Source: Methylovulum miyakonense HT12
GTDB lineage: Bacteria > Pseudomonadota > Gammaproteobacteria > Methylococcales > Methylomonadaceae
Assembly: GCF_000384075.1 (NCBI RefSeq)
Contig: NZ_KB913025.1
Span: 1,520,719-1,584,718, forward strand
Reading direction: 5' to 3'
Length of the DNA: 64,000 nucleotides
Below the pieces are notes generated by a model, which saw only the letters and a program-made list of their open reading frames with translations, was not told the DNA's origin and ran no database searches. Each line of letters opens with the position of its first letter. Position 1 is the stretch's first letter. A program made the translations under genes and the position numbers. Shown here piece after piece: positions 11,320 through 48,120 of this stretch.

Positions 11320-11421
11320 TGCGAATTGTTTTGTAAGATTGGTAAGTTGTTGATGGTGAATAATTAGATTGTAGGATGTGCCGACGATAGGAGGCGCATC
11401 GTTCGCGTTACAGTTTTATGT

Positions 11422-11506: not shown

Positions 11507-11516
11507 AAAATGCGTG

Positions 11517-11636: not shown

Positions 11637-11668
11637 GTTAATTTCCAAAAAAAATCAGGCTAACAATA

Positions 11669-12697: not shown

Positions 12698-16424
<3,727 letters not shown>

Positions 16425-22502: not shown

Positions 22503-23492
22503 TTAAACGCCATACGGCGACTGTATCCAATCTTTCAGGACGGCGGCGTCGCGTTCGGGTAGATAAGAAAAATCCCCGCTGATGTCATTGAATACGGCGA
22601 CCCCGCATTGTGGGGGTATCCATTTGTTTTTAAGCATGTAAAAAAACCACGCAAAGGGATAGCCTGCCTGACGGTCAAAACGGGTGAGCAGGTTATGTAG
22701 CTGCACGCCTTTTTGGCCTCGCAGGTCTTCCAGTTGTGGCAAGTTTTTGGGCTGGGTGTTGATGATCTCCACGTTGATCTGCTGTTCGCCGAAACGTCCG
22801 GTGTTACGGAACGGGCGCACGATCCAATCATCGGACAACAGGGCTTTTTGCTGGGCGCTGCTGCGGTTCCAGTCATCCATAAAGCGTTGCACCGGATGTT
22901 GGTCGGGGTGGTATTTGTTGATTTCGCCCATGAACACGGGCACATCGGTTTTACGCCGATACGCGTAACGGGCGGTGCCGATGCCGAAGGTGTCGACATA
23001 TTCGGGGGACAAGGGGTCGATGAACTCCTCCAAATCGTCTGGCGGGCAGGTATTGCTGACCAATAGGCGGTCAGACATTTCGCGGATTTTGTCGATGTCC
23101 ACTTGGATGAAGTCTTCCGCTTTGCGGCCAGTTTGGATGACAAAATATAAGGTGTTGCCGGTTTGCCGTGTGGCGATCAGCTGTTGCTCGCGGGTGTGGT
23201 CGATCAGGGTTTGTAAGTCCTTGCCGCATTCTATAAAGGTGCGCTCCGTCCATTCCACCAAATCGCTGGCGATACGCTTGCCGTGCATATCGACAATGCC
23301 GCCCAAACGGTACCATTCGCTGCCCGTGCGGGCTAGGCGCACCGGACAATCGGGTATCAAGGCTTGGATTTTTGCCAACAATTGCCCGTCATTTTGGCCC
23401 GGCAAGGTGTTTTTGCACAGTTTTGCCAATTGTTGCCCGTCCAATGGGGACGCGACCGGGTGCGTCTGAAAAAGGGGTTCCGCCATCATCAT
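22503..23492 (-). CDS. Nif-operon protein of unknown function (329 residues)
   Basis: I do not recognise a domain. The protein is soluble, with no signal peptide or membrane segment. It has RLGGIVDMHGKRIASDLVEW near residue 63, a Cys-Pro-Pro-Asp-Asp stretch near 148, and a Trp/Tyr-rich C-terminal half (YPFAWFFYMLKNKWIPPQCG). Its first ATG overlaps the stop of the LRV gene (ATGA; three ATG codons in a row occur here), so it is translated with that protein. Its fixed place between the LRV Fe-S protein and Nif11 suggests a nitrogenase-associated role. Confidence 0.78.
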   Translation of the reverse strand: MMMAEPLFQTHPVASPLDGQQLAKLCKNTLPGQNDGQLLAKIQALIPDCPVRLARTGSEWYRLGGIVDMHGKRIASDLVEWTERTFIECGKDLQTLIDHTREQQLIATRQTGNTLYFVIQTGRKAEDFIQVDIDKIREMSDRLLVSNTCPPDDLEEFIDPLSPEYVDTFGIGTARYAYRRKTDVPVFMGEINKYHPDQHPVQRFMDDWNRSSAQQKALLSDDWIVRPFRNTGRFGEQQINVEIINTQPKNLPQLEDLRGQKGVQLHNLLTRFDRQAGYPFAWFFYMLKNKWIPPQCGVAVFNDISGDFSYLPERDAAVLKDWIQSPYGV

Positions 23493-29419: not shown

Positions 29420-30337
<918 letters not shown>

Positions 30338-30727: not shown

Positions 30728-31145
30728 GTTAAGGATGACGGGCTGTATCGTTCTTGGGCAAAAATAGAATGCCTCAGTTTTGATGTTGAGGAGGTTAGTG
30801 AAAGCGCTATTGAGACTGTGAAAGAATTATTTTATGTCCACGAAAATCACGAAAAAACACGAAAGTGTAAAACCAGATTAAATATAAGTTATTGAAAATT
30901 ATTATTTAAGTGTTTCGTGTTTTTTGTGGGCAATCATTAATTCTTAGAGCATTTTGCAATACTTTCACACAGTCTCCATTGATATTGCCGTCCGTGAAAT
31001 CCATGACGACGGCTGCCCTGGTGATCCAGACATCGTCCCGGTGGTTGACCGTTTCCGCCTATTGCGTGGGTCAAAAAAATTGCTTTGGTACAATTTTGTG
31101 GAAGACGGGTTTGTCGATTACAAGCCACAAAACATCCGTAGGTAA
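30728..31145 (+). pseudogene. Possible decayed gene between nifH and the divergent operon
   Basis: Two stretches read like protein. The first, 30728-30830, gives DDGLYRSWAKIECLSFDVEE and continues into helical sequence, with an in-frame TAA just before it and no start. The second, about 30980-31145, gives DIAVREIHDDGCPGDPDIVP and ends QNIRR. Between them is a family D palindrome (30834-30940). This looks like one gene broken by a stop and a repeat. I recognise no family, and the NifA site for the divergent operon lies 11 bp after it. Confidence 0.3.
30834..30940. repeat. Family D palindrome
   Basis: TGTCCACGAAAATCACGAAA at the left pairs with TTTCGTGTTTTTTGTGGGCA at the right. A copy with the same arms lies at 47334-47387 between hupD and hupC. 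Confidence 0.75.
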
Positions 31146-31156
31146 ACCCTTTAAAT

Positions 31157-31172
31157 TGTCAGGAAACTGACA
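31157..31172. promoter_or_regulatory. NifA upstream activator site for the SIR2 operon
   Basis: The sequence TGTCAGGAAACTGACA is a TGT-N10-ACA site. It ends 65 bp upstream of the -24 element at 31238, a workable distance for an IHF-assisted or direct NifA contact. Its outer bases also form a palindrome. Confidence 0.75.
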
Positions 31173-31237
31173 AAGCCTGTCCTCCTTTTTCCTTATATAA
31201 TCCATTGATAATCAAAGATATAAAAATATCCAAAAAC

Positions 31238-31253
31238 TGGATTGGATTTTGCA
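31238..31253 (+). promoter_or_regulatory. Sigma-54 promoter of the SIR2 operon
   Basis: The sequence is TGGATTG, then GATT, then TTGCA. GG and GC are separated by exactly 10 bp and the -12 half is perfect. The -24 half departs from TGGCACG after TGG. The SIR2 ATG lies 37 bp downstream. Confidence 0.7.
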
Positions 31254-31289
31254 TAAGCATTAGCTATTTAATCCATCAAGGAGTTTTCT

Positions 31290-32153
31290 ATGTCCGCCAC
31301 GGTATTTTCTGAAATATTAGAGGGCCTTTACGACAATAAAATCGTGCCTTACCTAGGCCCGGGTGTATTGTTCGATGCCAAAAACAAACTCACCGGACAG
31401 GACATGCCTGCCGATAGCCATAGCCTGATTTTGGCGATGAACAACGGGCAGCCGATGGCGCCTAAGCTGATGTACGAATTTCCCCGGGCCGCGATGAACC
31501 AGGAGCTGAAGCGGGGCCGTAATTTCCTTAGCCAATTCCTCACCAAAACTTACGGGGAAACCGAATGGACACGCGCCGCCGTCCACGACTGGTTGGCGCA
31601 CTGGAAACCAGCTTATGTCATCGATGTCAACCGCGACACGCAATTGCAGGATAGCTATGCCGATGAGGAACACACGCTGATAGTGGGCGTGGCGCGGATC
31701 ACCGCCAGCCAGTTCCGTTACCGGATCTATCATTTTGATGGCGGCAGTTATTTTGAAATCCCGCAAGAACAAGTCGATCCGCGTTTCCCGGTGCTGTTCA
31801 AGCCGATGGGCACACCCAAGCCGGAAGCCAATTATGTCGCTTCCGATGCCGATTATGTCGATTACATCACCGAGCTGATGGGCGGCTTCGCCATCCCTGA
31901 ATTCCTGAAAAACTACCGCAAAGGCAAGCAATACCTGTTTCTGGGGTTGCGTTTGAACCGCGATTCCGAACGTATGGTGATGGGCGACATCATCCGGGAT
32001 GCCGGTGAGCGCAAAGGTTGGGCGCTGATTAAAAGCCCCACCGATAAGGAAGTCCGTTATTGCAAGAAAATCGGTTTGGAGATTATTGACGCCGATGTTG
32101 AGGACTGGTTGGAGGTGGTGGGGTTTGCTTACGCACAGAAAAAGACCGCTTGA
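31290..32153 (+). CDS. SIR2-like domain protein, first gene of a nif-linked operon
   Basis: The 287-residue protein resembles the SIR2_2-type family. It has an early KIVPYLGPGVLFD segment with the Gly-rich NAD-binding turn and a later KQYLFLGLRLNRDSERMVM stretch. No zinc-binding Cys pairs of classical sirtuins are visible, so NAD hydrolase or ADP-ribose chemistry is as likely as deacylation. AAGGAG precedes the ATG. It starts an operon with its own sigma-54 promoter and NifA site, divergent from nifH. Confidence 0.75.
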   Translation: MSATVFSEILEGLYDNKIVPYLGPGVLFDAKNKLTGQDMPADSHSLILAMNNGQPMAPKLMYEFPRAAMNQELKRGRNFLSQFLTKTYGETEWTRAAVHDWLAHWKPAYVIDVNRDTQLQDSYADEEHTLIVGVARITASQFRYRIYHFDGGSYFEIPQEQVDPRFPVLFKPMGTPKPEANYVASDADYVDYITELMGGFAIPEFLKNYRKGKQYLFLGLRLNRDSERMVMGDIIRDAGERKGWALIKSPTDKEVRYCKKIGLEIIDADVEDWLEVVGFAYAQKKTA

Positions 32154-32243
32154 GGGCTTGCACGCCAGTTACCCCGCCTTAGGCGGCGGATTAAAAGGGA
32201 CAGGGAATGTCCTGGATACTCCATACAGGCTAGAGGCTAATTT

Positions 32244-32831
32244 ATGAAACCACTACACGCAACTGTCCCGCGCATGGCGTCCCCGTCAGATTCCCTGAAA
32301 ATAGTGTTTGTCGGCAATGTCGGTTCGGGCAAGACAACCGCCATCGCCTCGGTGAGCGAAGTTCCCGTGTCAGGCACAGAAGCCAAGGCAACGGAAAATG
32401 ACGCCTTGCACCGGAAGGCGACCACCACGGTGGGCATAGAATACGGTGTGCTGCATGTCCACAACACCAAAGTGCATCTTTACGGCACCCCCGGGCAGCG
32501 CCGTTTTGATTTTATGGCGGCCATTGCCTGCCAAGGCGCCATTGGCATGGTGGTCATGATCGACAACGCCCACCAACAGCCTTTGGCGGAAATGGACTAT
32601 TTCCTGCGACGGCATGGTGATTATTTAAAAAACCATCCTGCCATCATCGCCATCACCCATTACGATGACAACGACACCCAAACGTATTTGATCGAATACC
32701 ACCGTTACCTGAAAGAACAGGGCATTCCATGCCCGGTCATGCGTTTGGATGCACGGGATAAAAACCAAGTCCGGCTCGTGGTGGAAAAGCTGTATGGCGA
32801 AATCGCCAAGCGCCGCGCCATGGCCTGTTGA
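32244..32831 (+). CDS. Small Ras-like GTP-binding protein (COG2229-like)
   Basis: The 195-residue protein has a P-loop GNVGSGKTT near residue 24. A switch region lies around KATTTVGIEYG, and the switch II motif YGTPGQRRFDFM departs from the usual DxxG. A degenerate NKxD equivalent is seen at ITHYDDND. It belongs to the SRP-receptor-beta/MglA-like bacterial GTPases. AGAGG lies before the ATG. A role as a switch acting with the SIR2-like and DUF364 proteins is inferred from the operon only. Confidence 0.8.
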   Translation: MKPLHATVPRMASPSDSLKIVFVGNVGSGKTTAIASVSEVPVSGTEAKATENDALHRKATTTVGIEYGVLHVHNTKVHLYGTPGQRRFDFMAAIACQGAIGMVVMIDNAHQQPLAEMDYFLRRHGDYLKNHPAIIAITHYDDNDTQTYLIEYHRYLKEQGIPCPVMRLDARDKNQVRLVVEKLYGEIAKRRAMAC

Positions 32832-32838
32832 GCTTGAT

Positions 32839-33816
32839 ATGCACAACCCCCAGCCCCTCTACGAACTCCTGCTAGATTCTTGCAGCAGCCAAACTAAGGC
32901 CGACAAGCTGATGATCGGCTTGGTCTGGACACTCTGCCAAGACGACAGCCAAGGCCACACGGGTTTGGCGATGAGCCCTGGTGTCGCCACCCGCACCTTG
33001 CCTTGGTCGGGCACGTTGGCAGGCAAGCCCGTCACCGACCTGGCGGCATGGATATTGGATTGGGAACCTTATAAAGCCACGGTGGCGATGGCGGCGATCA
33101 ATTGCTGCCTAAACAGTAGGCCGCTACCCGAATCGGTTCTGCTTGAGCATCACCCGGAACACCCTAACCTGGCCGTGTTCGACCATTTCCTGCCGCAGTT
33201 GCAGGGCAAAAACGTGGTGGTCATCGGCCATTACCCTGGCATAGAACGCTACCAAAACCAGATGCGGCTGACGGTGCTGGAAAAACAACCCACGGCGGGC
33301 GACTTGCCCGATGCGGCCAGCGAGTTCCTGCTGCCTAACGCCGATTGGGTGTTCCTGACCGCCAGTTCCATCCCCAACAAAACCTTCCCGCGTCTGGCGG
33401 AATTGTCCGGTAACGCCAAAACCGTGCTGATGGGGCCGACTGTGCCGTGGTTGCCGCAATTGCACGAGTTTGGCATTGATTATCTGGCGGGCGTGGAAGT
33501 CACCGATGCCAATGCCTTGTACCACACCGCCGCCCAAGGTGGCGGGGTGAGGATTTTCCAAAACGGCGTCCGCTACCGCATTGCCCAACTGACCCCGGCC
33601 ACCAGCCTGGCCTGGCTAAAGCGGCAAATCGCAGATTGTGCCGCCGAAAGGCTACGTCTGACGGCTGAAATGGAAAATTGGTACAACACGGGCAACACTG
33701 GCCGTTATCCGGCCTACCGGCTGTTGGAAGAGGCCAACGCCCGTTTGTCGCGGCTTGATAGCAGTTATAAATTGCTATGGGATAGCCACGGCACCCCAAC
33801 CAACCGTTTGGCTTAA
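32839..33816 (+). CDS. DUF364 (DUF4213-DUF364) family protein
   Basis: The 325-residue protein has an N-terminal DUF4213-like part and a C-terminal Rossmann-like DUF364 domain. The latter is seen in KNVVVIGHYPGIERYQ, LLPNADWVFLTASSIPNKT and VLMGPTVPWLP. DUF364 is described as a putative heavy-metal chelation domain and is often linked to metal-enzyme loci. The start at 32839 gives the family N-terminus, 8 bp after the GTPase stop. A role in handling Fe, Mo or a nitrogenase metal is possible but unproven. Confidence 0.8.
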   Translation: MHNPQPLYELLLDSCSSQTKADKLMIGLVWTLCQDDSQGHTGLAMSPGVATRTLPWSGTLAGKPVTDLAAWILDWEPYKATVAMAAINCCLNSRPLPESVLLEHHPEHPNLAVFDHFLPQLQGKNVVVIGHYPGIERYQNQMRLTVLEKQPTAGDLPDAASEFLLPNADWVFLTASSIPNKTFPRLAELSGNAKTVLMGPTVPWLPQLHEFGIDYLAGVEVTDANALYHTAAQGGGVRIFQNGVRYRIAQLTPATSLAWLKRQIADCAAERLRLTAEMENWYNTGNTGRYPAYRLLEEANARLSRLDSSYKLLWDSHGTPTNRLA

Positions 33817-34277
33817 TGCCGCAACCATCGCCCATGCTGACTGACGGACTCTTCAAAAACCACCGCTTGATGCTTTATTACAAAGGTGACATCAGCGCCC
33901 TGACCCTGTTCGCCCAAAACGGTGACGGCAGTGTCTGTTTCCCAAACCCATTGCCTGTGTTGTCCAGCGCCTTGGAGCCAGAAGCATTCACCGAAGCTAA
34001 AATTAGCCTGCACCCTTCGGTGTTGGTCAACGCCATCAACCAGCTTTTGCAGCTCGACAATGATTTGTTGCAAGCGGAATCCGGTTTTAGCGAACAGATC
34101 GACACGCCTGGCGGCATTGTCACCGTCCACATGGCGCGGTTCATGTTGCTGGACCCGCCGCATAAATTGCTGCAAAGCCGCGCTTGCCAGCTAAAAACCT
34201 TGCCGGAACTGCGGGGCAGGCCACCTGCGGAAATGGAATTGCTGCGCCGCGCTTATGTGAAAGTGATGGAGTCCTGA
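33816..34277 (+). CDS. Unknown protein in the nif-linked operon (153 residues)
   Basis: I do not recognise a family. The protein is soluble with no cysteine cluster motif. Notable parts are HRLMLYYKGDISALTLFAQN near the start and IVTVHMARFMLLDPPHKLL in the second half. Its ATG overlaps the DUF364 stop (TAATG), so the two are translationally coupled and probably act together. An alternative start lies at 33834. Confidence 0.75.
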   Translation: MPQPSPMLTDGLFKNHRLMLYYKGDISALTLFAQNGDGSVCFPNPLPVLSSALEPEAFTEAKISLHPSVLVNAINQLLQLDNDLLQAESGFSEQIDTPGGIVTVHMARFMLLDPPHKLLQSRACQLKTLPELRGRPPAEMELLRRAYVKVMES

Positions 34278-34278
34278 C

Positions 34279-35526
34279 ATGTTCGATTTTATGGACATGG
34301 GCTTTGGCCCGACTAGCGACCAGCCCATAACCGGGCCTTATATCCCCGATGCCAGCGATTGCCTACGCTGCGGGCAATGCGTCAGCAGCTGCCCGACCTT
34401 CCGCCTATTCCAAACCAACGAAGAAACCCCGCGCAGCCGTATCCGCACCATCAGCAAAATCCTGCTTGAAAACCAAGCCATTACCCCGGATGAACGCCAG
34501 TATCTCGACAACTGCGTGCAATGCCGCGCTTGCGAGGCCGTGTGCCCTAGCAAGATGGCTTACGGCGAGTTGTTTGACCAAGCCCGGGCGCAGTTGCACA
34601 CCGGGCCGGACTGGCTGGGAAAACTGGCGTTTTGGTTCATTGAAAACAAACGCTGGCGGTTTGGGCTACTGCCGTTGCTGGCGGCGTATTTAAAATCGGG
34701 TTTGCAAAAGCCCTTGCGGCGGATTGGCTTATTGAAAAAACTGCGTTTGGCTGAGGCCGACGCTTTATTGCTTCAACCTGCGTTAAAGCCCTTGGCGGCG
34801 CAGCACCCGGCCATGGGTACAAAACGCGGGCAAGTCGCTTTGTTCACGGGCTGTATCGCCGAGCATTTCGACCAAGGCACCTTGCAAGCCGCCATCACGC
34901 TGCTGAACGCGATTGGCTATGAGGTGGTGGTGCCTCCACAACAAGCCTGTTGCGGTGCGGTGCACCAACACAACGGGCAATCCGCCACGGATTTGATAGC
35001 AAAAAACCTGGCCGTTTTCAACGCGCTGGAAGCCGATGCCGTGCTGCATACCGCCACTGGTTGCGGGGCGATGTTAAGCGGATACCCAGATGAGGATACT
35101 GGAGCGGCGGGGCTATTCAGGCAACGGTTGCAGGATATCCAGGCGTTTTTGCTCGACCACTGGCCTGAAAGCTTGCCATTGCAAGCCTTGCCGGAAAAAG
35201 TTGCGGTGCACGAGCCCTGCAGCCAACGCAATGTCTTGAAAAACCAGCAAACGGTGTACGCCTTGCTGGCAAAAATCCCCGGGTTGGAAGTTGCCGCCTT
35301 AGCCGATAACCCTCTGTGTTGCGGTGCGGGTGGAAGCTACATGCTCACCCGTCCTGACAATGCCAAGCAATTACGCGGCCTAAAACGGCAAGCGATAGCC
35401 GCCGCCCAGGCGGATTGGGTGGTCAGCAGCAATTTTGGGTGTGCGGTTTTTTTGGGTGCCGAGGGCGGCAAAGTTGTCCATCCTTTGCATATCCTCGTCC
35501 GGCAGTTGCCTACAAACCTCAAGTAA
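34279..35526 (+). CDS. GlcF-like Fe-S/CCG-domain oxidoreductase
   Basis: The 415-residue protein carries two [4Fe-4S] motifs, CLRCGQCVSSCPTFR (Cys28, 31, 34, 38) and CVQCRACEAVCPS (Cys79, 82, 85, 89). Two CCG domains follow, with QACCGAVHQHNG and NPLCCGAGGSY. This is the layout of glycolate oxidase subunit GlcF, but no glcD or glcE is nearby. Within this operon it may instead channel electrons for the nif-linked system. It begins one base after the previous stop. Confidence 0.85.
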   Translation: MFDFMDMGFGPTSDQPITGPYIPDASDCLRCGQCVSSCPTFRLFQTNEETPRSRIRTISKILLENQAITPDERQYLDNCVQCRACEAVCPSKMAYGELFDQARAQLHTGPDWLGKLAFWFIENKRWRFGLLPLLAAYLKSGLQKPLRRIGLLKKLRLAEADALLLQPALKPLAAQHPAMGTKRGQVALFTGCIAEHFDQGTLQAAITLLNAIGYEVVVPPQQACCGAVHQHNGQSATDLIAKNLAVFNALEADAVLHTATGCGAMLSGYPDEDTGAAGLFRQRLQDIQAFLLDHWPESLPLQALPEKVAVHEPCSQRNVLKNQQTVYALLAKIPGLEVAALADNPLCCGAGGSYMLTRPDNAKQLRGLKRQAIAAAQADWVVSSNFGCAVFLGAEGGKVVHPLHILVRQLPTNLK

Positions 35527-35722: not shown

Positions 35723-38038
35723 TCATCCATTTAAAGCGGCGGCAACCATCGCCTGCCCCAATGCCAAACCGCCGTCGTTCATCGGGTAGCGTTGTGGCGA
35801 CAGCACGGTAAGGCCGTGCAACTGCAATTGCCGGGTCACGGCTTCCAGCAACAGGCGGTTTTGGAAGACGCCGCCGCTGAGCACGATGTGGCCAATCCCC
35901 GTTTCGCGGCTGAGCTGTTCCAGCAGCCCGGCAGTCGCGGCGGCTAGGCTGTGGTGGATACGGGCGGCGATAAGGGCTTTGTCCGTGCCGCGCTTAAGCT
36001 CATCCAGCACCGCTTGCCATAGGCCTTGCCAGCTTAGCACTGACATGCCTTGGCAACGCTCTATCGACCAGGCTTGAAGATAGGGTTGCCCGGCCGCAAA
36101 TAAGGGGGTCGCCAGGGTTTCCAAGGCAATCGCCGCTTGGCCTTCATAATGGGCCGCTTCGCCGTGCAAGCCAAGCGCGGCCGCAAAGGCGTCGAACCAA
36201 CGGCCACAGGAAGTGCTTGGCGGCGAGTTGAGGTTTTTGGCGACCATCGTTTCCAGCGTGGCCAGCGGCTTGCTTGCCAGCAACTTGATGATGTCCAGCC
36301 CGGCATAATCCCGTTGCAATGTTGGCCAGTCGAAATAATGCCGCAGTTGCGCATACGCATTGCGCCAAGGCTCGCGCATCGCCTGGGTGCCGCCCGGCAA
36401 GGCGATGGGCTGGAAATGGCCGAGCCGGGTGCAGCTTTGGTAATCGCCCAGCAGAAATTCGCCACCCCATAAGCCCCCGTCACCGCCCATGCCCAAGCCG
36501 TCGAAGATGGCGGCCAACAGTGGCGGTGCGTCCAGCGGGGCACCGTGTTCAGCCAGACAGGCCGCCAAATGGGCGTGATGGTGCTGCACGGGGACTAAAA
36601 CTGCTTGTCCTGTGGCTGCCAGGGTTTGCCCATATTGCGTGGACAAATAGCCAGGGTGGTTGTCTACGGCGATAACTTCAGGCCGGAAATCATACAGCTG
36701 CTGGTACAAATCAATGGCCTTGCGGTAATCGTGCTGGACGGCGGCATTTTCCAGGTCACCGATGTGCTGGCTAACAATGGCCTGGCCGTTTTTCAGCAAA
36801 CAGAAACTGTTTTTTAGCTCCGCGCCCATCGCCAAGATGTTGTTGGCTTGCCCGAAACCGGGTGGCAAGGGCAACGCGTCGGGGCTGTAACCACGCGCCC
36901 TACGTAGCAAGCGGAGGCTGCCGCCCATTAGCCGGACGACCGAATCATCCAGGCGGTTGGCGATGGCGCGGTCATGCAGCAATAGGTAATCGGCAATATC
37001 GGCCAATTTTTCCCGTGCTTCGTTGTTGTCCGTGCATTGCGGCTCGTCGCTGCTATTGCCGGAAGTCAGCACGATGGGCGCGTCCAAATCCTGCAACAGT
37101 AGGGTGTGCAACGGCGTGTACGGCAGCATGAAACCGAGTTTGTCATCGCCCGGTGCAACTCCCGGCGCCAAAGCTTCGCCGTGCGCCGCCAGCAACACAA
37201 TCGGCGCGGCTTTATCCTGCAAGGCGAGAGTTTCTCCGTCGTCCAGCTTGGCATAACGGGCAATCATGGCGGCATCCCGGGCCATCAACGCGAAGGGTTT
37301 GGCATAACGGCGTTTGCGTCCACGTAAACGGCTGACGGCGTCGGCATTTGTAGCATCGCAGGCCAGATGGAAACCGCCCAGGCCTTTGATCGCGATGATA
37401 TGGCCCTGCCGGATCAAGTCGGCGGTTTGTGCCAGCGGATCGGTGCAATCCAAGCGCTGGCCATGTTGGTCTTCCAGCCAAACCTGGGGGCCGCAGTCCG
37501 GGCAGCAGTTGGCTTGGGCGTGGAAGCGGCGGTCAGCGGGGTCATCGTATTCCTGCTGGCATTGCGGGCACAGCGCAAATTCCGCCATGCTGGTATGGCA
37601 GCGGTCATAAGGCACACGCCGGATGATAGATAGGCGCGGCCCGCAATGCGTGCAATGGGTGAAGGGATAACGGTAACGGCGGTTACTTGGGTCGGCAATG
37701 TCGGCAAGGCAATCGGGGCAAGTGGCGGCGTCGGCGGCGACAGGCGTTTCCATGCCATTGTGCTGGCTGGCGACGATGCGGAACCCGTCGCTGCGGGGCA
37801 AACCGTCCAAAATTTGCACCTCCAGGCTGTCCAGCCGGGCCAGCGGCGGTTGGTGCAGCGGGATTTGCCGGATGAACGCATCCAGGTCTGCATCGCTACC
37901 GAAAACATGGATCATCACGCCCAGCCCGTCGTTCCAGACTTCCCCGGCCAGCTGGTGTTGCCCTGCCAGCCGCCAGACCATCGGCCTGAAGCCGACGCCT
38001 TGCACGATGCCACGGATCCTGATCGCCCTGCCGGGCAT
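35723..38038 (-). CDS. hypF: Carbamoyltransferase HypF
   Basis: The 771-residue enzyme uses carbamoyl phosphate to start synthesis of the CN ligands of [NiFe] hydrogenases. The N-terminal acylphosphatase domain has IRGIVQGVGFRPMVWRLAG. Zinc-finger pairs follow (CPDCLADI, CTHCGPRL, CPQCQQEY, CCPDCGPQ), then a YrdC-like domain and a Kae1-like domain with VQHHHAHLAACLAEHG. The ATG at 38038 overlaps the hypE stop. It is the last gene of the hyp set and probably serves both hydrogenases. Confidence 0.95.
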   Translation of the reverse strand: MPGRAIRIRGIVQGVGFRPMVWRLAGQHQLAGEVWNDGLGVMIHVFGSDADLDAFIRQIPLHQPPLARLDSLEVQILDGLPRSDGFRIVASQHNGMETPVAADAATCPDCLADIADPSNRRYRYPFTHCTHCGPRLSIIRRVPYDRCHTSMAEFALCPQCQQEYDDPADRRFHAQANCCPDCGPQVWLEDQHGQRLDCTDPLAQTADLIRQGHIIAIKGLGGFHLACDATNADAVSRLRGRKRRYAKPFALMARDAAMIARYAKLDDGETLALQDKAAPIVLLAAHGEALAPGVAPGDDKLGFMLPYTPLHTLLLQDLDAPIVLTSGNSSDEPQCTDNNEAREKLADIADYLLLHDRAIANRLDDSVVRLMGGSLRLLRRARGYSPDALPLPPGFGQANNILAMGAELKNSFCLLKNGQAIVSQHIGDLENAAVQHDYRKAIDLYQQLYDFRPEVIAVDNHPGYLSTQYGQTLAATGQAVLVPVQHHHAHLAACLAEHGAPLDAPPLLAAIFDGLGMGGDGGLWGGEFLLGDYQSCTRLGHFQPIALPGGTQAMREPWRNAYAQLRHYFDWPTLQRDYAGLDIIKLLASKPLATLETMVAKNLNSPPSTSCGRWFDAFAAALGLHGEAAHYEGQAAIALETLATPLFAAGQPYLQAWSIERCQGMSVLSWQGLWQAVLDELKRGTDKALIAARIHHSLAAATAGLLEQLSRETGIGHIVLSGGVFQNRLLLEAVTRQLQLHGLTVLSPQRYPMNDGGLALGQAMVAAALNG

Positions 38039-39090
38039 CAGCAAATGCGCGGCAACTGTTCGCCGACTGGCCAGTCTACGATGCGCCTGCCGCCGAAAGC
38101 CGTGCGCATTTCCACGAAGTGGTGGTGGTCGGCAACCACTTCTCCGATGATTGCGGCATCGCGGCCTAGCGGATGTTGCCCCATGACGGCGAGCAGGCGT
38201 TCGGCAGCCACCGCATTGCAAATGCACACCAGTTTGCCTTCGTTGGCGACATACAGAGGATCCAAACCCAGAATTTCACAAGCGGCTTTGACTTCGTCTT
38301 TTATCGGTATCTGCGCCTCGTCAATGACCATCCCGACGCCGGATTGCTGCGCCAGTTCGTTCAACGCCGTCGCCAAGCCGCCACGGGTCGGGTCACGCAA
38401 ACAGTGGATGTCGGCGGGTGCGGCGGCGACCATAGCGGCGACCAGCGAATTGAGCGCGGCGGAATCGGACACAAGCGTCGTGCCGAATTGCAGGTTTTCC
38501 CGCCCGGCCATAATCGCGACGCCATGGTCGCCAATCGGGCCGCTGAGCAAAATCGCACAGCCCGGTTGCGCGCGGTTACCCGAAATATTGACGCCCTTCG
38601 GCACGATACCGACGCCGGTGGTGGTGATAAACACACCATCGCCTTTGCCGCGTTCCACCACTTTGGTGTCGCCAGTGATGATAGGCGTACCGGCACTTTG
38701 GGCGGCGGCGGCCATGCTGATGACGATTTTTTCCAGATCGGCCAGCGGCAAGCCTTCTTCCAAAATAAAACCCGCCGCCAAATACAGCGGCTTCGCGCCG
38801 GACATCGCGACATCATTGACCGTGCCATGCACCGCCAGCGAACCGATGTCGCCGCCCGGAAAAAACAATGGCGAAATCACATGCCCGTCGGTGCTGATGA
38901 CCAGCCGTCCTGCAGGCACGGCAAATAGGGCTTGGTCATTGCGTTGGCGCAGCAGGTCGTTATCGAAATGTTTGATGAACAGCTCGTCGATAAGCTGTGC
39001 CATCGCGCGGCCGCCACCGCCGTGGCTTAGGTCGACTTTGCCGTGGGTGAGGTCGAGGCGGGACAGAAATGGAATGCGCTTTGGATTCAT
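38038..39090 (-). CDS. hypE: Thiocarboxamide dehydratase HypE
   Basis: The 350-residue PurM-like enzyme dehydrates the carbamoyl group on its own C-terminal Cys to thiocyanate. The protein ends in the required PRIC. The N-terminus has LSHGGGGRAMAQLIDE. Central ISTDGHVISPLFFPGGDIG and DPTRGGLATALNELA motifs are typical for ATP binding. It overlaps hypF by one base. Confidence 0.95.
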   Translation of the reverse strand: MNPKRIPFLSRLDLTHGKVDLSHGGGGRAMAQLIDELFIKHFDNDLLRQRNDQALFAVPAGRLVISTDGHVISPLFFPGGDIGSLAVHGTVNDVAMSGAKPLYLAAGFILEEGLPLADLEKIVISMAAAAQSAGTPIITGDTKVVERGKGDGVFITTTGVGIVPKGVNISGNRAQPGCAILLSGPIGDHGVAIMAGRENLQFGTTLVSDSAALNSLVAAMVAAAPADIHCLRDPTRGGLATALNELAQQSGVGMVIDEAQIPIKDEVKAACEILGLDPLYVANEGKLVCICNAVAAERLLAVMGQHPLGRDAAIIGEVVADHHHFVEMRTAFGGRRIVDWPVGEQLPRIC

Positions 39091-39185
39091 GTGATAACGT
39101 ACGAGTGGAATTTATGTGATAACGACAAAAATAGCTCCCATAGCAAAACGGAGTCGAGTTGGCTGGTTGGGTACCAACCCTCCAT

Positions 39186-39680
39186 TCAAGAAAACCTACC
39201 AATGTTGGAAGCTTTAACGTTATAAAGCATCGGCGGATATTGATCTGCAACATACTTTTCAAAAGCAACGAAATCGTTGACTGGCAAGCTCGCGACCAGT
39301 AGGTCAGTTGTAGCAAGGCTGGTATAAAAGCGCCCACCCAAGCAACCAGTTTTTGGGTTCTTATCGAGAATGTGTCGATAAAGACGGAATCCTACTGCAG
39401 CATCTTTCCCCCAATAAATGGGAATAGCATCTACTTGGCCTAAGCTGATTTTCTTGATCTTGCTCAATGGAGTTTTGAGGCTTTTTTTGTCACGAGCCTC
39501 CGCTTCAAGAATTCGAGCTTCAACGTCATTAAGTGCAACAACGATACCATAGACTGCACCAGGTAGAACTCCTTTTGCATCTGGACTCTTGGCTAAATTG
39601 AAGGTTGTACAAGTTTGCGCTGGCTCGTAGCCACCAGATCTTGCTACCTGTTCGAGGAATTGCAGAAATACGCTATGCAT
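39186..39680 (-). CDS. Unknown protein inserted between hypD and hypE
   Basis: I do not recognise a family for this 164-residue soluble protein. It has GVLPGAVYGIVVALNDVEAR near residue 37 and PIYWGKDAAVGFRLYRHIL near 85. The base composition is more AT-rich than the flanking hyp genes, suggesting later acquisition. It sits where hypD and hypE are normally adjacent, 20 bp after hypD. A YWGKD-type motif recalls proteins that hold a GIY-YIG-like fold, but the evidence is too weak to assign it. Confidence 0.65.
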   Translation of the reverse strand: MHSVFLQFLEQVARSGGYEPAQTCTTFNLAKSPDAKGVLPGAVYGIVVALNDVEARILEAEARDKKSLKTPLSKIKKISLGQVDAIPIYWGKDAAVGFRLYRHILDKNPKTGCLGGRFYTSLATTDLLVASLPVNDFVAFEKYVADQYPPMLYNVKASNIGRFS

Positions 39681-39700
39681 GATTGCTGATAATTAACAAG

Positions 39701-40816
39701 CTACTTCACTGCCCGCCGTACCCGCCCATACGACCAATACGCCGCGCAAGCCCCCTCCGACGACACCATACAAGACCCCATCGGGTTCTCAGGCGTACAC
39801 ACCGTGCCCAATAACTTGCAATCCTGCGGTTTTTTGGCGCCGCGCAGGATGGCGGGGCATTCGCAGCCTTTGGTATCGGAGGCTTGGATGGCGGGCATGT
39901 TAAAGCGTTGTTCGGCATCGAAATCGGCATATTCAGGTTTCAGTTGCAACGCGCTGTTAGGGATCAAGCCTAAGCCGCGCCATTCAAATTGCGGGCGCAA
40001 CTCGAACACGGCCTGCACCAAGGCCTGCGCCTTCAGATTGCCGTCGCGGGTGACGGCGCGGCTGTATTCGTTTTCGACCTCACAGCGGCCTTCGTTGAGC
40101 TGGCGTATTAGCATCAGCGACGACTGCATCACGTCCAGCGGCTCAAAACCGGCGATGACTATCGGTTTGGCGTAGCGCTCAGCAAATACTTCATAAGGCT
40201 GGCTGCCGATCACCGTGCTGACGTGGGACGGGCCGAGGAAGGCGTCTATCGATACTGGCTGCGGCGCATCCAGTATGGCTTGCATCGCGGCGGGGGTCAG
40301 GACGTGGTTGCAGAACACCGAGAAATTAGCCAAGCGTTCGGCTTGGGCTTGCTGGATGATGACGGCGGTTGGTGGCGTCGTGGTTTCAAAGCCGATCGCG
40401 AAAAACACGACCTGTTTTCCGGGGTTTTCCCTGGCAATTTTCAACGCGTCCTGCGTCGAATAAACCATGCGGATATCACTGCCATCAGCTTTGGCTTTCA
40501 GCAAGCTGTTGCGGCCGGTAGCCGGCACCCGCATCAAGTCGGCATAGGTGCAGAGAATGACGTCCTGGCTTCCGGCCAGTTGTATCGCATTGTCGATGCG
40601 GCCGGTCGGCAATACGCACACCGGACAGCCGGGGCCGTGGATGAATTCGACGTTCGCGGGCATCAAGTCCTGGACGCCGTAGCGGAAAATGGCATGGGTA
40701 TGGCCGCCGCAAAATTCCATCAGCCGGTAATGGCGGCCGGGATTTACGGTTTGCGCAATCGCGTTCGCCAGTTGCTGCGCGAGGCCTTGCTCGCGGAATT
40801 CGCTAATGTATTTCAT
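39701..40816 (-). CDS. hypD: Hydrogenase maturation protein HypD
   Basis: The 371-residue [4Fe-4S] protein binds iron with HypC and assembles the Fe(CN)2CO unit. Typical motifs are EFCGGHTHAIFRYG, HGPGCPVCVLPTGRID and TKGCECPAILRG, with the C-terminal cluster cysteines in LGTVCTPENPMGSCMVSSEG. It overlaps hypC by 14 bp. The next gene downstream is the unknown insert rather than hypE. Confidence 0.95.
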   Translation of the reverse strand: MKYISEFREQGLAQQLANAIAQTVNPGRHYRLMEFCGGHTHAIFRYGVQDLMPANVEFIHGPGCPVCVLPTGRIDNAIQLAGSQDVILCTYADLMRVPATGRNSLLKAKADGSDIRMVYSTQDALKIARENPGKQVVFFAIGFETTTPPTAVIIQQAQAERLANFSVFCNHVLTPAAMQAILDAPQPVSIDAFLGPSHVSTVIGSQPYEVFAERYAKPIVIAGFEPLDVMQSSLMLIRQLNEGRCEVENEYSRAVTRDGNLKAQALVQAVFELRPQFEWRGLGLIPNSALQLKPEYADFDAEQRFNMPAIQASDTKGCECPAILRGAKKPQDCKLLGTVCTPENPMGSCMVSSEGACAAYWSYGRVRRAVK

Positions 40817-42955: not shown

Positions 42956-44134
42956 TTAACGCTCAATCAGGTTTAAAGTGTATTGGACGCAGGGGTCTAT
43001 CGCATTAACCAGCAGTTGCGCTTGTTGCCGCAGATTGTCAGAATTTTGGGCTTGTAAGCATCGTAAGCCTTGCACGACCACGCCTTCGGGATGGAAATTC
43101 CATTCGGTGGGCGCGACTATCCGGTAATCGTACACCCTTCCTTGCCGCAACACCAAGCGATGGATCAACAGACCTCGTGCCGCCTGGACTTGAGCCAGGG
43201 CCAAGCCATCGCTGGCGGTGCTGGTTATGGGCAAGCCTGTGCCGTCGTTTATCCGCGCCAAAAGGTGGTTTAACCGGGAGGGTATGCCGGCGACTTCCGA
43301 CAAGCGGCCCAGGATGCGGACAATCAGGCCATTGCCGTACTGGTCTTGCAATTCGCTGATTAATGGCCGTGCCAATTGGCGGTTCAACAATGTCGTTTCA
43401 AAACAGCGGCCTTGCCAATGGGGTGTCCTCACAAAAGCCGTCAAACCTTCCTGCTGCATGCGTTGGTTTAATGCCTGGCCATCCAGTTCCGGCAAACAGG
43501 CGACGGGGTTTTGTCCGATGGCTTCCCAGTTTTGGCGATATAAAAAATCCAGCAAGCGGGCGGATATTGCCGGGTTTTGCAATAGCCAAGCCTGCAACTG
43601 CGCTTCGGTATCCAGTGCCTGAAAATCGGCTTGCCGTCCGTTAAAAATCGCGGTGTCGGTTAATGCCGACAATTCCGCCACCAGCCCGCTTAGCCGTGCC
43701 ATATCGGGGGCAAGATGGCTATCCAACCTGAACGCCATGCCATCCTGAAATAACAGTTGCTTGAATTGCGCGTCGAATTTAAGCAAGGCCGCCAAGTGGG
43801 TTTTATCGGGGGCAAGGCCGATAAAACTAGGCCAGTCCAACAAAATCCGCCACGCATGTTCGCGCAGGGTTTCCAGTTGCACCAGCAGTTCGCGGGCGGT
43901 ATCGGCTTTGGGTTCGGAAGCCATGCCCAGCGCGGTACGGCAAGCCAGCAACGCGGCGTAGGCTTGGGCATTGCCGCACAGTGTGAACAGCAATGGCACG
44001 GTGGCGAGCACTTGTTCCGGGGTTTTACCTAGCAACACCCGTGTTGCCGCGTCAGGGCGGGTAGAGGTGATGTGCGCATCCATTGCCTGACCTGAGCGAT
44101 GGTATAGCTCAATAGTTAAAGAACCAGCGGGCAT
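42956..44134 (-). CDS. hupK: Hydrogenase assembly protein HupK/HoxV
   Basis: The 392-residue protein is a degenerate relative of the hydrogenase large subunit. It ends in IDPCVQYTLNLIER, where the L2 position keeps one Cys and loses the second, as known for HupK/HoxV. It is thought to act as a scaffold for the Fe(CN)2CO unit. Its place after hupJ matches the hupSLCDFGHIJK order. Confidence 0.88.
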   Translation of the reverse strand: MPAGSLTIELYHRSGQAMDAHITSTRPDAATRVLLGKTPEQVLATVPLLFTLCGNAQAYAALLACRTALGMASEPKADTARELLVQLETLREHAWRILLDWPSFIGLAPDKTHLAALLKFDAQFKQLLFQDGMAFRLDSHLAPDMARLSGLVAELSALTDTAIFNGRQADFQALDTEAQLQAWLLQNPAISARLLDFLYRQNWEAIGQNPVACLPELDGQALNQRMQQEGLTAFVRTPHWQGRCFETTLLNRQLARPLISELQDQYGNGLIVRILGRLSEVAGIPSRLNHLLARINDGTGLPITSTASDGLALAQVQAARGLLIHRLVLRQGRVYDYRIVAPTEWNFHPEGVVVQGLRCLQAQNSDNLRQQAQLLVNAIDPCVQYTLNLIER

Positions 44135-44137
44135 CGT

Positions 44138-44599
44138 TCAATGTTTGCCGATAGTCCCGCGTAATAAATCGCGGCGGCTGATGCCACGCGGTTCCGGGGT
44201 GGCCAGCAAGCCTTGCAATGCCGCTTGTGCTGCCGCCAGCGCGGCGGCTTGATCCGCGAACTGGAACATCGGCGAAAACAAAGAACATTGCGCGTACATC
44301 CCCAACAGCGTTTCACTGCCCAAGGTAAATTCAAACGTGCCATAGGGGAAGCTCCGCTCGATGCTGGTACCGGACGCTTGCCCGCACCAAGTGCTGTCCG
44401 AACCCGGCAATAGCAACAGATTCATGCACCAAGGTGTCAGCAACACGCCCAGCCAATCTTCGTTAAAGCGGTTGAAACCGATAGCTTGTACCGACAGCGC
44501 GGTGTTGGCTATCGGCAGCCCGCCCATCCGGGCGTCCAAAATATCGTTGAATGCCGTTTCCAGCGCGAGCCGGATTTGCCCGCTCTCCCGCCACAACAT
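44138..44599 (-). CDS. hupJ: Hydrogenase assembly chaperone HupJ (HybE/HoxT family)
   Basis: The 153-residue protein matches the HybE/HupJ family. It has MGGLPIANTALSVQAIGF near residue 22 and WLGVLLTPWCMNLLLLPG near 45, then FPYGTFEFTLG. The family helps to proofread or assemble the small subunit before Tat export. The ATG at 44599 lies two bases after the rubredoxin stop. Confidence 0.88.
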   Translation of the reverse strand: MLWRESGQIRLALETAFNDILDARMGGLPIANTALSVQAIGFNRFNEDWLGVLLTPWCMNLLLLPGSDSTWCGQASGTSIERSFPYGTFEFTLGSETLLGMYAQCSLFSPMFQFADQAAALAAAQAALQGLLATPEPRGISRRDLLRGTIGKH

Positions 44600-44601
44600 G
44601 C

Positions 44602-44823
44602 TCAATCGTCCAGCAACAAAAAGTCCTGTTTTTTGCCGCCGCACTGCGGGCAGCCCCAATGTTCCGGTAACTGCGAAAACGCCGTGCCGGACGGTATTTG
44701 CCAGACTTCGTCGCCGAGTGACGGGTCGTACACATACCAGCAAATCTTGCACTCCAGCCGGGTTTCCGGCGGCAACCGTGATACGTCGCCACCATAAGCC
44801 CCGGCAAAAAACGACCCGTTCAC
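44602..44823 (-). CDS. hupI: Rubredoxin-like HupI/HoxR
   Basis: The 73-residue protein has rubredoxin ligands CKICWYVYDP and WGCPQCGGKKQDF. The GTG start at 44823 forms a GTGA overlap with the hupH stop and is preferred over an upstream TTG. In Rhizobium and Ralstonia this protein supports assembly of the O2-tolerant or uptake hydrogenase small subunit under oxygen. Confidence 0.9.
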   Translation of the reverse strand: MNGSFFAGAYGGDVSRLPPETRLECKICWYVYDPSLGDEVWQIPSGTAFSQLPEHWGCPQCGGKKQDFLLLDD

Positions 44824-45665
44824 AGATACACCTTCAATATTTCCTGCAAACGTTGGCAACTGTCGGCAATGTCTTCCGGCGAAGCGCAGGCCACGCTGGG
44901 CACGTCGCTGACTTCCAAGGTGTTAAGGATCAGGGTGTCTTGGGAGTTAAAATATTGCACCCACCAGACCCTCTTTGTGCCAGTGGCGGTGATGCGGTTT
45001 GTTCCGTAGCCCCGGGACAATATCGCCACCGTGCCTTTACCCAAGCGTTGCTCCAGAAATGCCAAATCCTGCTCGGTTTGCGGCAACAGGCTCAAATTGA
45101 TGCTATGCGCCTCATGGGTTGCTGGGTATGCGGCAATTTTGGCGTTGAGTTCTGCCAATAGCGGCGGGGCGTTCATCACGCCTTCGGGCAACGCCGCCCA
45201 AGCCGTGTCGATGTGGCTAGCCGCACCGTCAAACGCCAATTGCATGATTTGTTGCGGGATAATGCCGACTTCCAACACCTCATCAACAATTTGCCGCTGG
45301 GCATTGAGCGTTTGCGACCGCCAAACCCCGGCCAGCACCGATTCCTGGATGCGGACTTGCCCGCCGGAACCGATAACGCTGACCTCGCCTTCGCCCAACA
45401 GTTCGTCAATGAACTTGCGGTTGTCCGCGTCCAGTTGCGTCAGGTCGTTGGGTTTGGACACTGCCGGAAAGGCCGCCAAATCCTGTTGCAATTGCAGCAA
45501 GACGGCTTTCGCCTGTGCCAAATCGTGTGCATTCAAATCCGCCGAAATCTGCGGCATGGCGTAAGTCGCCATGTCCTGCGGCATTTGCAGATAATCCAAC
45601 GTTGCGCCGTCTTGTTCAGGCGGTTGGCTGCCTAGTCCGAAAATAGGGAGTGAAATAGAACTCAT
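44820..45665 (-). CDS. hupH: Hydrogenase assembly protein HupH (HyaF/HoxQ)
   Basis: The 281-residue protein matches HyaF/HupH/HoxQ. Typical parts are the LGEGEVSVIGSGGQVRIQES segment near residue 90 and VWWVQYFNSQDTLILNTLEV near 230. It binds the small-subunit precursor during maturation. A long hairpin lies between it and the upstream hupG. Confidence 0.9.
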   Translation of the reverse strand: MSSISLPIFGLGSQPPEQDGATLDYLQMPQDMATYAMPQISADLNAHDLAQAKAVLLQLQQDLAAFPAVSKPNDLTQLDADNRKFIDELLGEGEVSVIGSGGQVRIQESVLAGVWRSQTLNAQRQIVDEVLEVGIIPQQIMQLAFDGAASHIDTAWAALPEGVMNAPPLLAELNAKIAAYPATHEAHSINLSLLPQTEQDLAFLEQRLGKGTVAILSRGYGTNRITATGTKRVWWVQYFNSQDTLILNTLEVSDVPSVACASPEDIADSCQRLQEILKVYL

Positions 45666-45721
45666 GATGGTCGTGGTTTATTTTAGGGTTACAAGAAAGG
45701 CGTGCCATGCGCCCCTTTTCA

Positions 45722-45866
45722 CGCTCGTTCCCAAGCTCCGGCTTGGGAATGCGGCCTTGGAAGCTCTAGCTTCCAGTCACTTGCGTAGATATTGATGCCC
45801 ATGTGGGATACGCGAAGCTAGAGCTTCTGCTACCGCATTCCCAAGCCGGAGCTTGGGAACGAGCGA
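45722..45866. repeat. Long hairpin, family E, in the hup operon
   Basis: The left arm GCTCGTTCCCAAGCTCCGGC, with its extension to CCGC, pairs with the right arm GCCGGAGCTTGGGAACGAGC. Inner arms GAAGCTCTAGCTTCC and GAAGCTAGAGCTTC add further pairing. The element fills the hupG-hupH gap and could act as a processing site or partial terminator. Confidence 0.85.
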
Positions 45867-45925
45867 ATATCCTTAACAGCGGTGACACGGCACATGGAAA
45901 CGGGGATAGGATGAACAAACGATAT

Positions 45926-46345
45926 TCAATGCGCCGCCCCGCAGACTTTATCCAAATCAAAGCCAGGCGGTTGGCTGGGTGTGGCGGCGAGTATGCGTAC
46001 GGTTTCCTGCATAAAATCCTGCCAATCGCGGATGCCGCTGATGACGCCTAAATACTCGCCGCCGCGCAAAAACACCAACGAGGGCCAACGGGTGAAGCGA
46101 AACCGCGCCTGTAATTCGCGCTCGATAGCTTTGCCGATAACCGCCGCTTGCAGCCTACCGCTGAAGGCTTTCAGCAATTCCGGCAAGATCACCGCGACAT
46201 CGTTGCTTTCGGGGAAATGCACGGGGTCGTTACAAAAAAACAGCACGACGGTTCCGTTACCGTAAACAAAAGGGTCGTAGTTGTCCGCATCCAGCAACGG
46301 CAAGCCGTGGCGGGACTGCAGTTGGTCTATCAAAGGTGAAGTCAT
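45926..46345 (-). CDS. hupG: Hydrogenase assembly protein HupG (HyaE/HoxO)
   Basis: The 139-residue thioredoxin-fold protein lacks the CxxC of thioredoxin, as HyaE/HupG/HoxO proteins do. Recognisable are YGNGTVVLFFCNDPVHFPES and RFTRWPSLVFLRGGEYLG. It binds the Tat signal of the small subunit precursor with HupH. It overlaps hupF by 4 bp. Confidence 0.88.
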   Translation of the reverse strand: MTSPLIDQLQSRHGLPLLDADNYDPFVYGNGTVVLFFCNDPVHFPESNDVAVILPELLKAFSGRLQAAVIGKAIERELQARFRFTRWPSLVFLRGGEYLGVISGIRDWQDFMQETVRILAATPSQPPGFDLDKVCGAAH

Positions 46346-46638
46346 GATTGCAAAAACTCCGGTAAGGTCGGTTCCCTGTCCACTAAATCGGCGAACAGAT
46401 GGTCTATTTGGGTTTCGCCCTGCATCGCCAGACGCATGGCTTCCAAGGCATCAGTAATTTGCCGGGCTTTTTCCTCGCTGAGCACTTCACGGGCGGTGTC
46501 CAGGAACACCAGCAACCAAGTGCCGACGGGCTGCTCGCCGACCAGCATCATGTCAATCAGGTTTTCTAGGCCACGATAGAGGCAGACGGCCATTTCGCCG
46601 CGCTGCCCGATAATTTGCATGGGAAGGCCGATACACAT
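46342..46638 (-). CDS. hupF: HypC-family chaperone HupF
   Basis: The 98-residue HypC paralogue begins MCIGLPMQIIGQ, with Cys2 as the functional residue. VGEQPVGTWLLVFLDTAREV is typical of HupF/HoxL. It carries the iron unit for the membrane hydrogenase and is thought to protect maturation under oxygen. Its ATG overlaps the hupD stop by one base. Confidence 0.92.
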   Translation of the reverse strand: MCIGLPMQIIGQRGEMAVCLYRGLENLIDMMLVGEQPVGTWLLVFLDTAREVLSEEKARQITDALEAMRLAMQGETQIDHLFADLVDREPTLPEFLQS

Positions 46639-47312: not shown

Positions 47313-47333
47313 CGTTAATCCTTAGAAAAATGT

Positions 47334-47387
47334 TGTCCACGAAAAGCACGAAATCTCTTTAAAAATTTTCGTGTTTTTCGTGGACAA
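47334..47387. repeat. Family D palindrome between hupD and hupC
   Basis: TTGTCCACGAAAAGCACGAAA shortened arms pair with TTTCGTGTTTTTCGTGGACAA around a short AT-rich loop. The element is closely related to the one at 30834-30940. Confidence 0.8.
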
Positions 47388-47401
47388 AATGCCGTTTTAG
47401 G

Positions 47402-48106: not shown

Positions 48107-48120
48107 GCGCGGTTACTCCG

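Follow-up and report, generated by a model that had tools for sequence, protein, structure and literature searches.

Methylovulum miyakonense HT12, a gammaproteobacterium of the order Methylococcales and probably a methanotroph, carries beside nifH a five-gene operon with its own NifA/sigma-54 promoter, located in a 64,000-nucleotide stretch of contig NZ_KB913025.1 (positions 1,520,719 to 1,584,718; hereafter the window, in which positions are counted from its first letter) within a complete genome of 4.69 Mb. The operon encodes, in order, a PnfA-like protein of the SIR2 fold, a Ras/MglA-like small GTPase, a DUF4213-DUF364 protein, the nitrogenase-associated factor NafT and a GlcF-like protein with iron-sulfur (Fe-S) and CCG domains (Table 1). 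The identities of these genes are well supported, and for the set as a whole, with the GTPase as an inserted member, we infer a kit for the post-translational maintenance of nitrogenase, a reading that we hold at about even strength.

A sequence-only reading of the same stretch had described an upstream activator sequence (UAS) for NifA and a properly spaced sigma-54 -24/-12 element, followed by a close-packed run of five genes divergent from nifH. The coordinates and the run were confirmed, the gaps in gene order being 90 bp between the SIR2 and GTPase genes and then 7, -1 and 1 bp. Its gene families were likewise recovered by Pfam (SIR2_2; Ras-like GTPase; DUF4213 and DUF364; Fer4 and two CCG domains), the fourth gene being without a Pfam match at E 0.1. 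Its statement that none of the five was a known nif gene was wrong: gene 1 fits PnfA and gene 4 is by sequence NafT.

Just two pairs of UAS and -24/-12 elements with the right order and spacing (40-180 nt) occur in the window, that of the operon, 81 nt apart, and that of nifH. The -24 half of the operon promoter is weak, since TGG alone of its TGGATT agrees with the sigma-54 -24 consensus TGGCAC. Conservation of the arrangement was assessed at the best 80 of at least 574 SIR2 relatives in named genomes, the loci kept for placement and promoter counts, which together with the window gave 81 sequences and 81 upstream regions; expected numbers were obtained from 100 dinucleotide shuffles per upstream region. 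TGG-N8-YTGC was found within 200 bp upstream of the SIR2 gene in 63 of the 81 regions (2.7 expected), and TGT-N10-ACA within 400 bp in 71 (9.1 expected). The control by NifA and sigma-54 that had been proposed from the window alone thus gains support from relatives: the pair, in the right order and 40-180 nt apart, is conserved in 56 of the 81 regions against 0.12 expected, an excess inflated by kinship in a set that includes betaproteobacteria and other gammaproteobacteria. One NifA scored over the family cut-off in the genome itself (at 875430-876944).

Sigma-70 promoters and terminators within the operon were also considered and set aside, their counts being no higher than chance, and a search with Rfam at gathering scores found no RNA families. 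The intergenic region between nifH and the pnfA-like gene contains a 171-bp element (30809-30979) resembling a miniature inverted-repeat transposable element, with 12-bp terminal inverted repeats that are 92% complementary; no second full copy lies in the window, and a search of the loci met it in stretches of the same genome only.

The distribution of the PnfA-like protein follows that of nitrogenase. We counted it in the genome of M. miyakonense and 60 relatives (61 genomes), in a class sample of 369 genomes and in a phylum sample of 284 genomes; the samples overlap, and all counts pool the two branches of the family described below. Among the 61 genomes it was present in 30 and nifH in 28, and each of the 28 nifH-positive genomes encoded it. 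The two carriers lacking nifH were G010, an assembly of 950 contigs with 7% contamination, and G023, which is 77% complete. In the class sample SIR2 was found in 28 genomes, nifH in 32 and both in 27, so that SIR2 accompanied 27 of the 32 nifH-positive genomes and 1 of the 337 nifH-negative ones (Fisher P 8e-35, uncorrected for kinship); in that single nifH-negative carrier, G326, the SIR2 gene lies at a contig start. The phylum sample, in which nifH was called at E 1e-80, contained 16 SIR2-positive and 37 nifH-positive genomes with 13 in common. Carriers were therefore nifH-positive in 28 of 30 cases among the relatives, 27 of 28 in the class and 13 of 16 in the phylum.

Gene placement points the same way. 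Among the 80 named loci, nifH was divergent from the SIR2 gene in 52, with a gap of 294-1721 bp in 50 of them and of 3.3 and 8.5 kb in the other two, and in none of the 80 did it lie on the strand of SIR2; it was not in the available stretch in the remaining 28. The co-occurrence with nif that the sequence-only reading had put forward for checking is thus borne out, with SIR2 and DUF364 in all 28 nifH-positive relatives and SIR2 in 27 of the 32 nifH-positive class genomes, and the nitrogenase link that it had proposed is strongly supported by this co-occurrence, the divergent placement, the conserved promoter and the PnfA and NafT literature. Of the conserved synteny that it had also put forward for checking, the divergent nifH was recovered in most loci; other Methylococcales have DUF364, NafT and the Fe-S gene at sites away from this locus. 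One of the loci, L141 (CAIYDX010000374.1), is labelled as a Geobacteraceae metagenome-assembled genome; its SIR2 protein is 82% identical to that of the window and its gene order is nifH-SIR2-NafT-FeS, and it is probably a mis-binned methanotroph contig.

These features resemble those reported for pnfA (PST1325) of Pseudomonas stutzeri A1501. In the available part of that report, PST1325 adjoins nifH divergently, has a -24/-12 element and a TGT-N10-ACA site, depends on NifA and RpoN, encodes a protein of 31.7 kDa known from diazotrophs only, and has a second subfamily at 20% identity (PMC2820453). The same excerpt describes a non-polar pnfA mutant with 23% nitrogenase activity that could be complemented and kept nifH transcription; nitrate-supported anaerobic N2 fixation was lost and growth without added nitrogen was kept, and the authors likened PnfA to UspA/ETF (PMC2820453). 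Elsewhere PST_1325 is listed as a 'SIR2 family protein' beside PST_1326, nifH (PMC11332353, in part). Gene 1 of the operon fits a PnfA-type nif gene by its position divergent from nifH, its NifA-sigma54 promoter with TGT-N10-ACA, its size (about 32 kDa), the 'SIR2' annotation, its near-confinement to diazotrophs and the existence of two subfamilies with about 20% mutual identity, a basis other than alignment; no match to PST1325 turned up in any of the sequence searches made. The window gene differs in heading an operon with GTPase, DUF364, nafT and Fe-S genes, and our model shows a SIR2 fold where the authors drew a comparison with UspA/ETF.

A second branch of SIR2 proteins, 20-28% identical to the window protein, is also tied to nif genes. 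Sequences of this branch came from 72 plasmid records, 69 of them from Rhizobium, Sinorhizobium or Mesorhizobium; in both rhizobial plasmids inspected the gene comes after nifB-fdxN-nifZ-nifT, and in a Methylococcus plasmid it also lies within the nif cluster. Among the relatives, the SIR2 protein of G039, G051, G054 and G057 belongs here (28% identical to the window protein), as do, by gene context, at least 8 of the 28 class genomes with SIR2 (G039, G073, G228, G266, G272, G309, G320 and G361). Two published proteins probably fall within this nifT-linked branch of R. etli p42d, both being placed by description and not by alignment: Rcc03262 of Rhodobacter capsulatus, a 'SIR2 family protein' listed beside NifT and entered as NF in the nifA double mutant in the excerpt of PMC6925177, and ZMO1821 of Zymomonas, which in the excerpt of PMC8600466 is raised under N2 fixation and guessed to be a deacetylase. 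The branch thus shares with the window protein its SIR2 likeness and its nif cluster setting, with NifA dependence in Rcc03262 and increase under N2 fixation in ZMO1821, and it differs in its low identity, its nifB-fdxN-nifZ-nifT context and the active-site change given below.

To what extent the PnfA-like protein could act as a sirtuin was judged from its fold and conserved positions. An AlphaFold2 model built from 36 sequences (predicted local distance difference test, pLDDT, 91) had SIR2 NADases as its best PDB matches in Foldseek (DSR2, E 5e-10; KomC, E 8e-10; template modelling, TM, score about 0.6). The catalytic His was taken from the KomC H146N and DSR2 H171A entries, and a catalytic role is also assigned to the SIR2 Asn. 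Three MAFFT modes with four KomC/ThsA-like plasmid SIR2 proteins agreed in placing the Asn of TTNYD at Asn114 and the catalytic His at Met173; a local hmmsearch alignment to KomC stopped at residues 143-152 instead, and later motifs favour Met173. Asn114 is invariant in all 81 sequences. At position 173, Met occurs in 66, Leu in 12 and His in 3, so that 78 of 81 proteins, that of the window among them, lack the His; the GAGxS Ser has given way to Leu in 79 and to Val in 2. In five proteins of the second branch the Asn is Trp in each case and the His position is Leu, Leu, Leu, Tyr and His. The PnfA-like protein is therefore probably a sirtuin-fold protein with impaired catalysis in most members, which argues against a deacetylase or an NAD-dependent control of NifH. 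It shares with the SIR2 NADases of phage defence (KomC, DSR2, ThsA) the fold and the TTNYD Asn, and differs from them in the loss of the catalytic His (in most members) and of the GAGxS Ser (in all) and in its nif linkage. A role in phage defence was rejected on the nif-linked occurrence and on the PADLOC search, which gave no match for the protein at E 0.01.

The sequence-only reading had noted that the window has no draT or draG and had suggested NAD-dependent control of NifH in place of DraT/DraG; the absence holds for the window, whereas the genome itself encodes DraT (G000:C1:1808277-1809041), and the substitution was rejected because DraT is present and the catalytic His is replaced. Of the 61 genomes, 13 have DraT and 30 have the SIR2 gene. 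That the operon works through NAD chemistry, also suggested from sequence, is not supported, given the replaced His and the unchanged nifH transcription upon loss of PnfA.

Gene 4 was assigned to NafT by a profile of ten homologues, whose only convincing matches were 8eno_E and 9cjf_E (E 1e-15; next match 0.49). A model of moderate confidence (pLDDT 67) gave 8eno_E as top Foldseek match (E 8.5e-7, TM 0.63/0.77), then 9cjf_E. After the NafT entries the model matched Nudix folds at E 3e-3 and weaker; the Nudix hydrolase fold often binds ADP-ribose-type nucleotides. The C-terminal LLRRA block is invariant in the ten sequences and falls where the published helix contacting the molybdenum-iron (MoFe) protein lies (residues 117-131); Ser14 is kept, and Asp200 and Tyr281 of the partner NifD are present in the window. 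A search of the 369 class genomes turned up NafT in 13, each of them positive for both nifH and SIR2. According to the available parts of PMC9968304 and PMC11612016, NafT of Azotobacter binds homocitrate-free MoFe protein and MoFe protein inactivated by alkaline turnover, its site overlaps that of the Fe protein, and insertion, repair or the blocking of damaged enzyme have been proposed as its roles. The window protein thus resembles Azotobacter vinelandii NafT (Avin_01560; PDB 8ENO, 9CJF) in profile, top structural match and C-terminal helix, and differs from it in three interface residues considered below and in being encoded together with DUF364 and Fe-S/CCG proteins.

The DUF364 protein matched Dhaf4260 (PDB 3L5O) over residues 7-247 with E 1e-28, and departs from it by nearly 80 extra C-terminal residues and its nif-linked context. 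For Dhaf4260 the authors of the structure suggest, in the excerpt, a part in chelator, flavin or pterin chemistry in the neighbourhood of metal transporters (PMC2954201). DUF364 was present in 31 of the 61 genomes, including all 28 with nifH. The Fe-S/CCG protein has 4Fe-4S motifs at residues 28-34 and 79-85, and its best NCBIfam profile was GlcF, the glycolate oxidase iron-sulfur subunit (E 1e-54), with 185.8 bits against a cut-off of 333. In 18 stretches of relatives that contain nafT, DUF364 lay upstream in 17 (gap at most 176 bp) and the Fe-S gene at most 37 bp downstream in 16, stretches that were preselected around SIR2, DUF364 or nifH matches and overstate DUF364-NafT linkage. SIR2 stood ahead of this module in 11 of the 18, among them G004, in which DUF364 is missing and the nafT match is in two pieces.

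The GTPase gene behaves differently. Apart from M. miyakonense, only G006, G008 and G017 had it at the pnfA locus; two of the 80 named loci had it as well, L118 and L120, which correspond to G017 and G006. Members of its multi-copy family occur in 39 of the 61 genomes, nifH-positive and nifH-negative alike. The GTPase therefore looks like a late insertion. The idea from sequence of a GTP switch within a nitrogenase module is not upheld by this lack of conservation, and the GTPase as a nif switch was rejected on the breadth of its family and its presence at the pnfA locus of three relatives only. The operon is a composite of genes, and the five as one ancient module were likewise rejected, the synteny being composite.

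In the reading that we favour, a kit for post-translational maintenance, NafT would recognise and park damaged MoFe protein, and the Fe-S/CCG and DUF364 proteins would supply electrons and a metal- or cofactor-handling step for its repair or re-activation. PnfA would be a catalytically impaired stabiliser or sensor, probably binding a nucleotide or a partner, and neither a deacetylase nor an NADase; the GTPase would probably be incidental.

A number of observations weigh against this reading. Because 5 of the 32 nifH-positive class genomes and 24 of the 37 in the phylum sample are without SIR2, the protein must be dispensable in many diazotrophs, and 3 of the 16 SIR2-positive phylum genomes (G459, G482 and G660; 99-100% complete) had no nifH match. 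Adjacency to nifH is not universal, since among the 28 named loci in which nifH was not found 13 span the full 10 kb upstream, and gene 1 was assigned to PnfA by position, promoter, size, annotation and distribution. In NafT, three interface residues differ, the window protein having Tyr, Gly and Leu for His9, His11 and Arg16. Linkage of the partners is uneven beyond the selection bias already given: nafT adjoins DUF364 in 17 of 24 DUF364 stretches and has no match in 7 (L018, L027, L029, L031, L032, L047 and L052), some 14 kb separate NafT-FeS from DUF364 in G020, NafT, DUF364 and SIR2 are far from one another in G039, and the module is apart from SIR2 in 7 of the 18 NafT stretches. Among 11 class-level NafT stretches, 10 of them from outside the Methylococcales, an adjacent Fe-S gene was found in none and DUF364 in one (L099).

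As a separate observation, the three phylum genomes G459, G482 and G660 combine a strong SIR2 match with nifH unmatched at E 1e-80, and are explained by missing multi-copy contigs or are genuine exceptions.

The chief rival holds that nif-accessory genes with separate jobs were gathered for convenience under one NifA/sigma-54 promoter without forming a joint pathway, which is a real possibility if on balance a doubtful one. It accords with the local insertion of the GTPase and with the relatives in which DUF364, NafT and the Fe-S gene lie apart from SIR2 and sometimes from each other, as well as with four Methylobacter loci (L124, L128, L129 and L130) that have the order SIR2-NafT without DUF364, the Fe-S gene coming next in three. 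Less easily accommodated are the confinement of NafT to SIR2-positive genomes (13 of 13) and the recurrence of the SIR2-(DUF364-)NafT-FeS join in relatives that carry four different genus labels (g1, g4, g5 and g15). A dedicated MoFe repair pathway, in which NafT would spot homocitrate-less enzyme, DUF364 and the Fe-S/CCG protein would restore or re-reduce the site, and PnfA, its catalytic His lost and its Asn kept, would sense NAD+ or ADP-ribose as a redox or energy signal gating the process, we consider unlikely.

Electron supply or oxygen protection, with the GlcF-like protein feeding electrons to nitrogenase and PnfA aiding flow or protection as its authors proposed, would suit the two 4Fe-4S motifs of the Fe-S/CCG protein and the phenotype of the pnfA mutant, which in the available part of PMC2820453 can no longer fix N2 anaerobically with the support of nitrate and shows low activity when oxygen is low. 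It is quite unlikely, since the PnfA-like protein matches SIR2 in both Pfam and fold with electron-carrier families unmatched, and since 68 of the 80 named loci, some with short stretches, have no same-strand Fe-S/CCG match after SIR2. A supply of metal (Mo/Fe) or of a chelator for cofactor synthesis, centred on DUF364 and with the trio in a nifEN-region pathway, is improbable in our view. DUF364 shares its stretch with nifEN-type genes in eight cases (L014, L019, L024, L027, L029, L030, L051 and L052), five of which (L014, L019, L024, L030 and L051) are among the seven modules detached from SIR2, and its published genome context, as excerpted, includes Mo/W/V/Fe transport (PMC2954201). Against this, the Methylobacter loci have no DUF364 gene separating SIR2 from NafT, and NafT acts on assembled MoFe protein according to the excerpts of PMC9968304 and PMC11612016. 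Enzymatic, NAD-dependent control of NifH or NifA by the SIR2-like protein (as deacetylase, NADase or through ADP-ribose chemistry) is highly improbable: the SIR2_2 match, the NADase fold, the invariant Asn114, the His kept in 3 of 81 sequences and the deacetylase guess for ZMO1821 (excerpt of PMC8600466) are outweighed by the His replaced by Met or Leu in 78 of 81, the Ser lost in all, the Asn lost in all five second-branch proteins, the DraT of the same genome and the empty PADLOC search.

PnfA and NafT themselves are already known. They have been described separately, PnfA in 2010 (PMC2820453) and NafT through structures in 2023 and 2024 (PMC9968304, PMC11612016), with neither mechanism established in the available parts of these papers. 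In the open-licence literature, pnfA and nafT under one NifA/sigma-54 promoter were not found by a search aimed neither at the combination nor at the name pnfA, and neither the gene order DUF364-NafT-Fe-S nor a changed sirtuin site in PnfA was met in a search not aimed at exactly these; nothing appeared for nifH with SIR2 in methanotrophs or for DUF364 with nitrogenase, phrase-based zeros that mean little. That PnfA and NafT share a NifA-controlled operon, together with two linked partners, provides a gene set for testing how inactivated nitrogenase is cared for, and such helper genes may matter for the transfer of nitrogenase into other organisms. For the SIR2-like protein, the published guesses (UspA/ETF-like; deacetylase) give way to a testable sirtuin-fold protein with an altered active site.

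Table 1 Features of the pnfA-nafT operon and the divergent nifH in the window.
Feature	Position	Strand	Remarks
NifA UAS, TGT-N10-ACA, TGTCAGGAAACTGACA, perfect palindrome	31157..31172	+	81 nt upstream of -24/-12
Sigma-54 -24/-12 promoter (TGG-N8-TTGCA), TGGATTGGATTTTGCA	31238..31253	+	52 nt before pnfA start
pnfA-like gene, SIR2_2 fold, Met173 in place of the catalytic His	31290..32153	+	Pfam, model, alignment
Ras/MglA-like small GTPase, lineage-specific insertion	32244..32831	+	Pfam, locus comparison
DUF4213-DUF364 protein, Dhaf4260-like	32839..33816	+	Pfam; PDB 3l5o E 1e-28
nafT, nitrogenase-associated factor T family (by sequence)	33816..34277	+	Profile 8eno_E/9cjf_E E 1e-15; Foldseek
GlcF-like protein, two 4Fe-4S motifs and two CCG domains	34279..35526	+	Pfam Fer4 and 2xCCG
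nifH, divergent	29420..30301	-	Own UAS 30476-30461 and own -24/-12 30363-30348, minus strand

Other genes of the window were noted in passing. A conserved gene at 22503-23492 (minus strand) follows the nifHDK-T-NafY-DUF6129-LRV stretch; it has no Pfam match at E 0.01 and adjoins DUF364 in L018 and L032. Near the nif genes, 10939-16424 (minus strand) contains a bacterial globin, a dihydroorotate-dehydrogenase-like gene and a NifJ-like pyruvate:ferredoxin/flavodoxin oxidoreductase, and a single open reading frame of 1250 aa at 16856-20608 (plus strand) fuses an AI-2E transporter domain with a P-type cation ATPase. Hydrogenase genes flank the nif region on both sides, with NiFe-hydrogenase genes and NADH-dehydrogenase-like partners at 555-7607 and NiFe hydrogenase large and small subunits with a HupH protein at 42956-52565; the genes at 35723-40816 resemble hydrogenase maturation genes.

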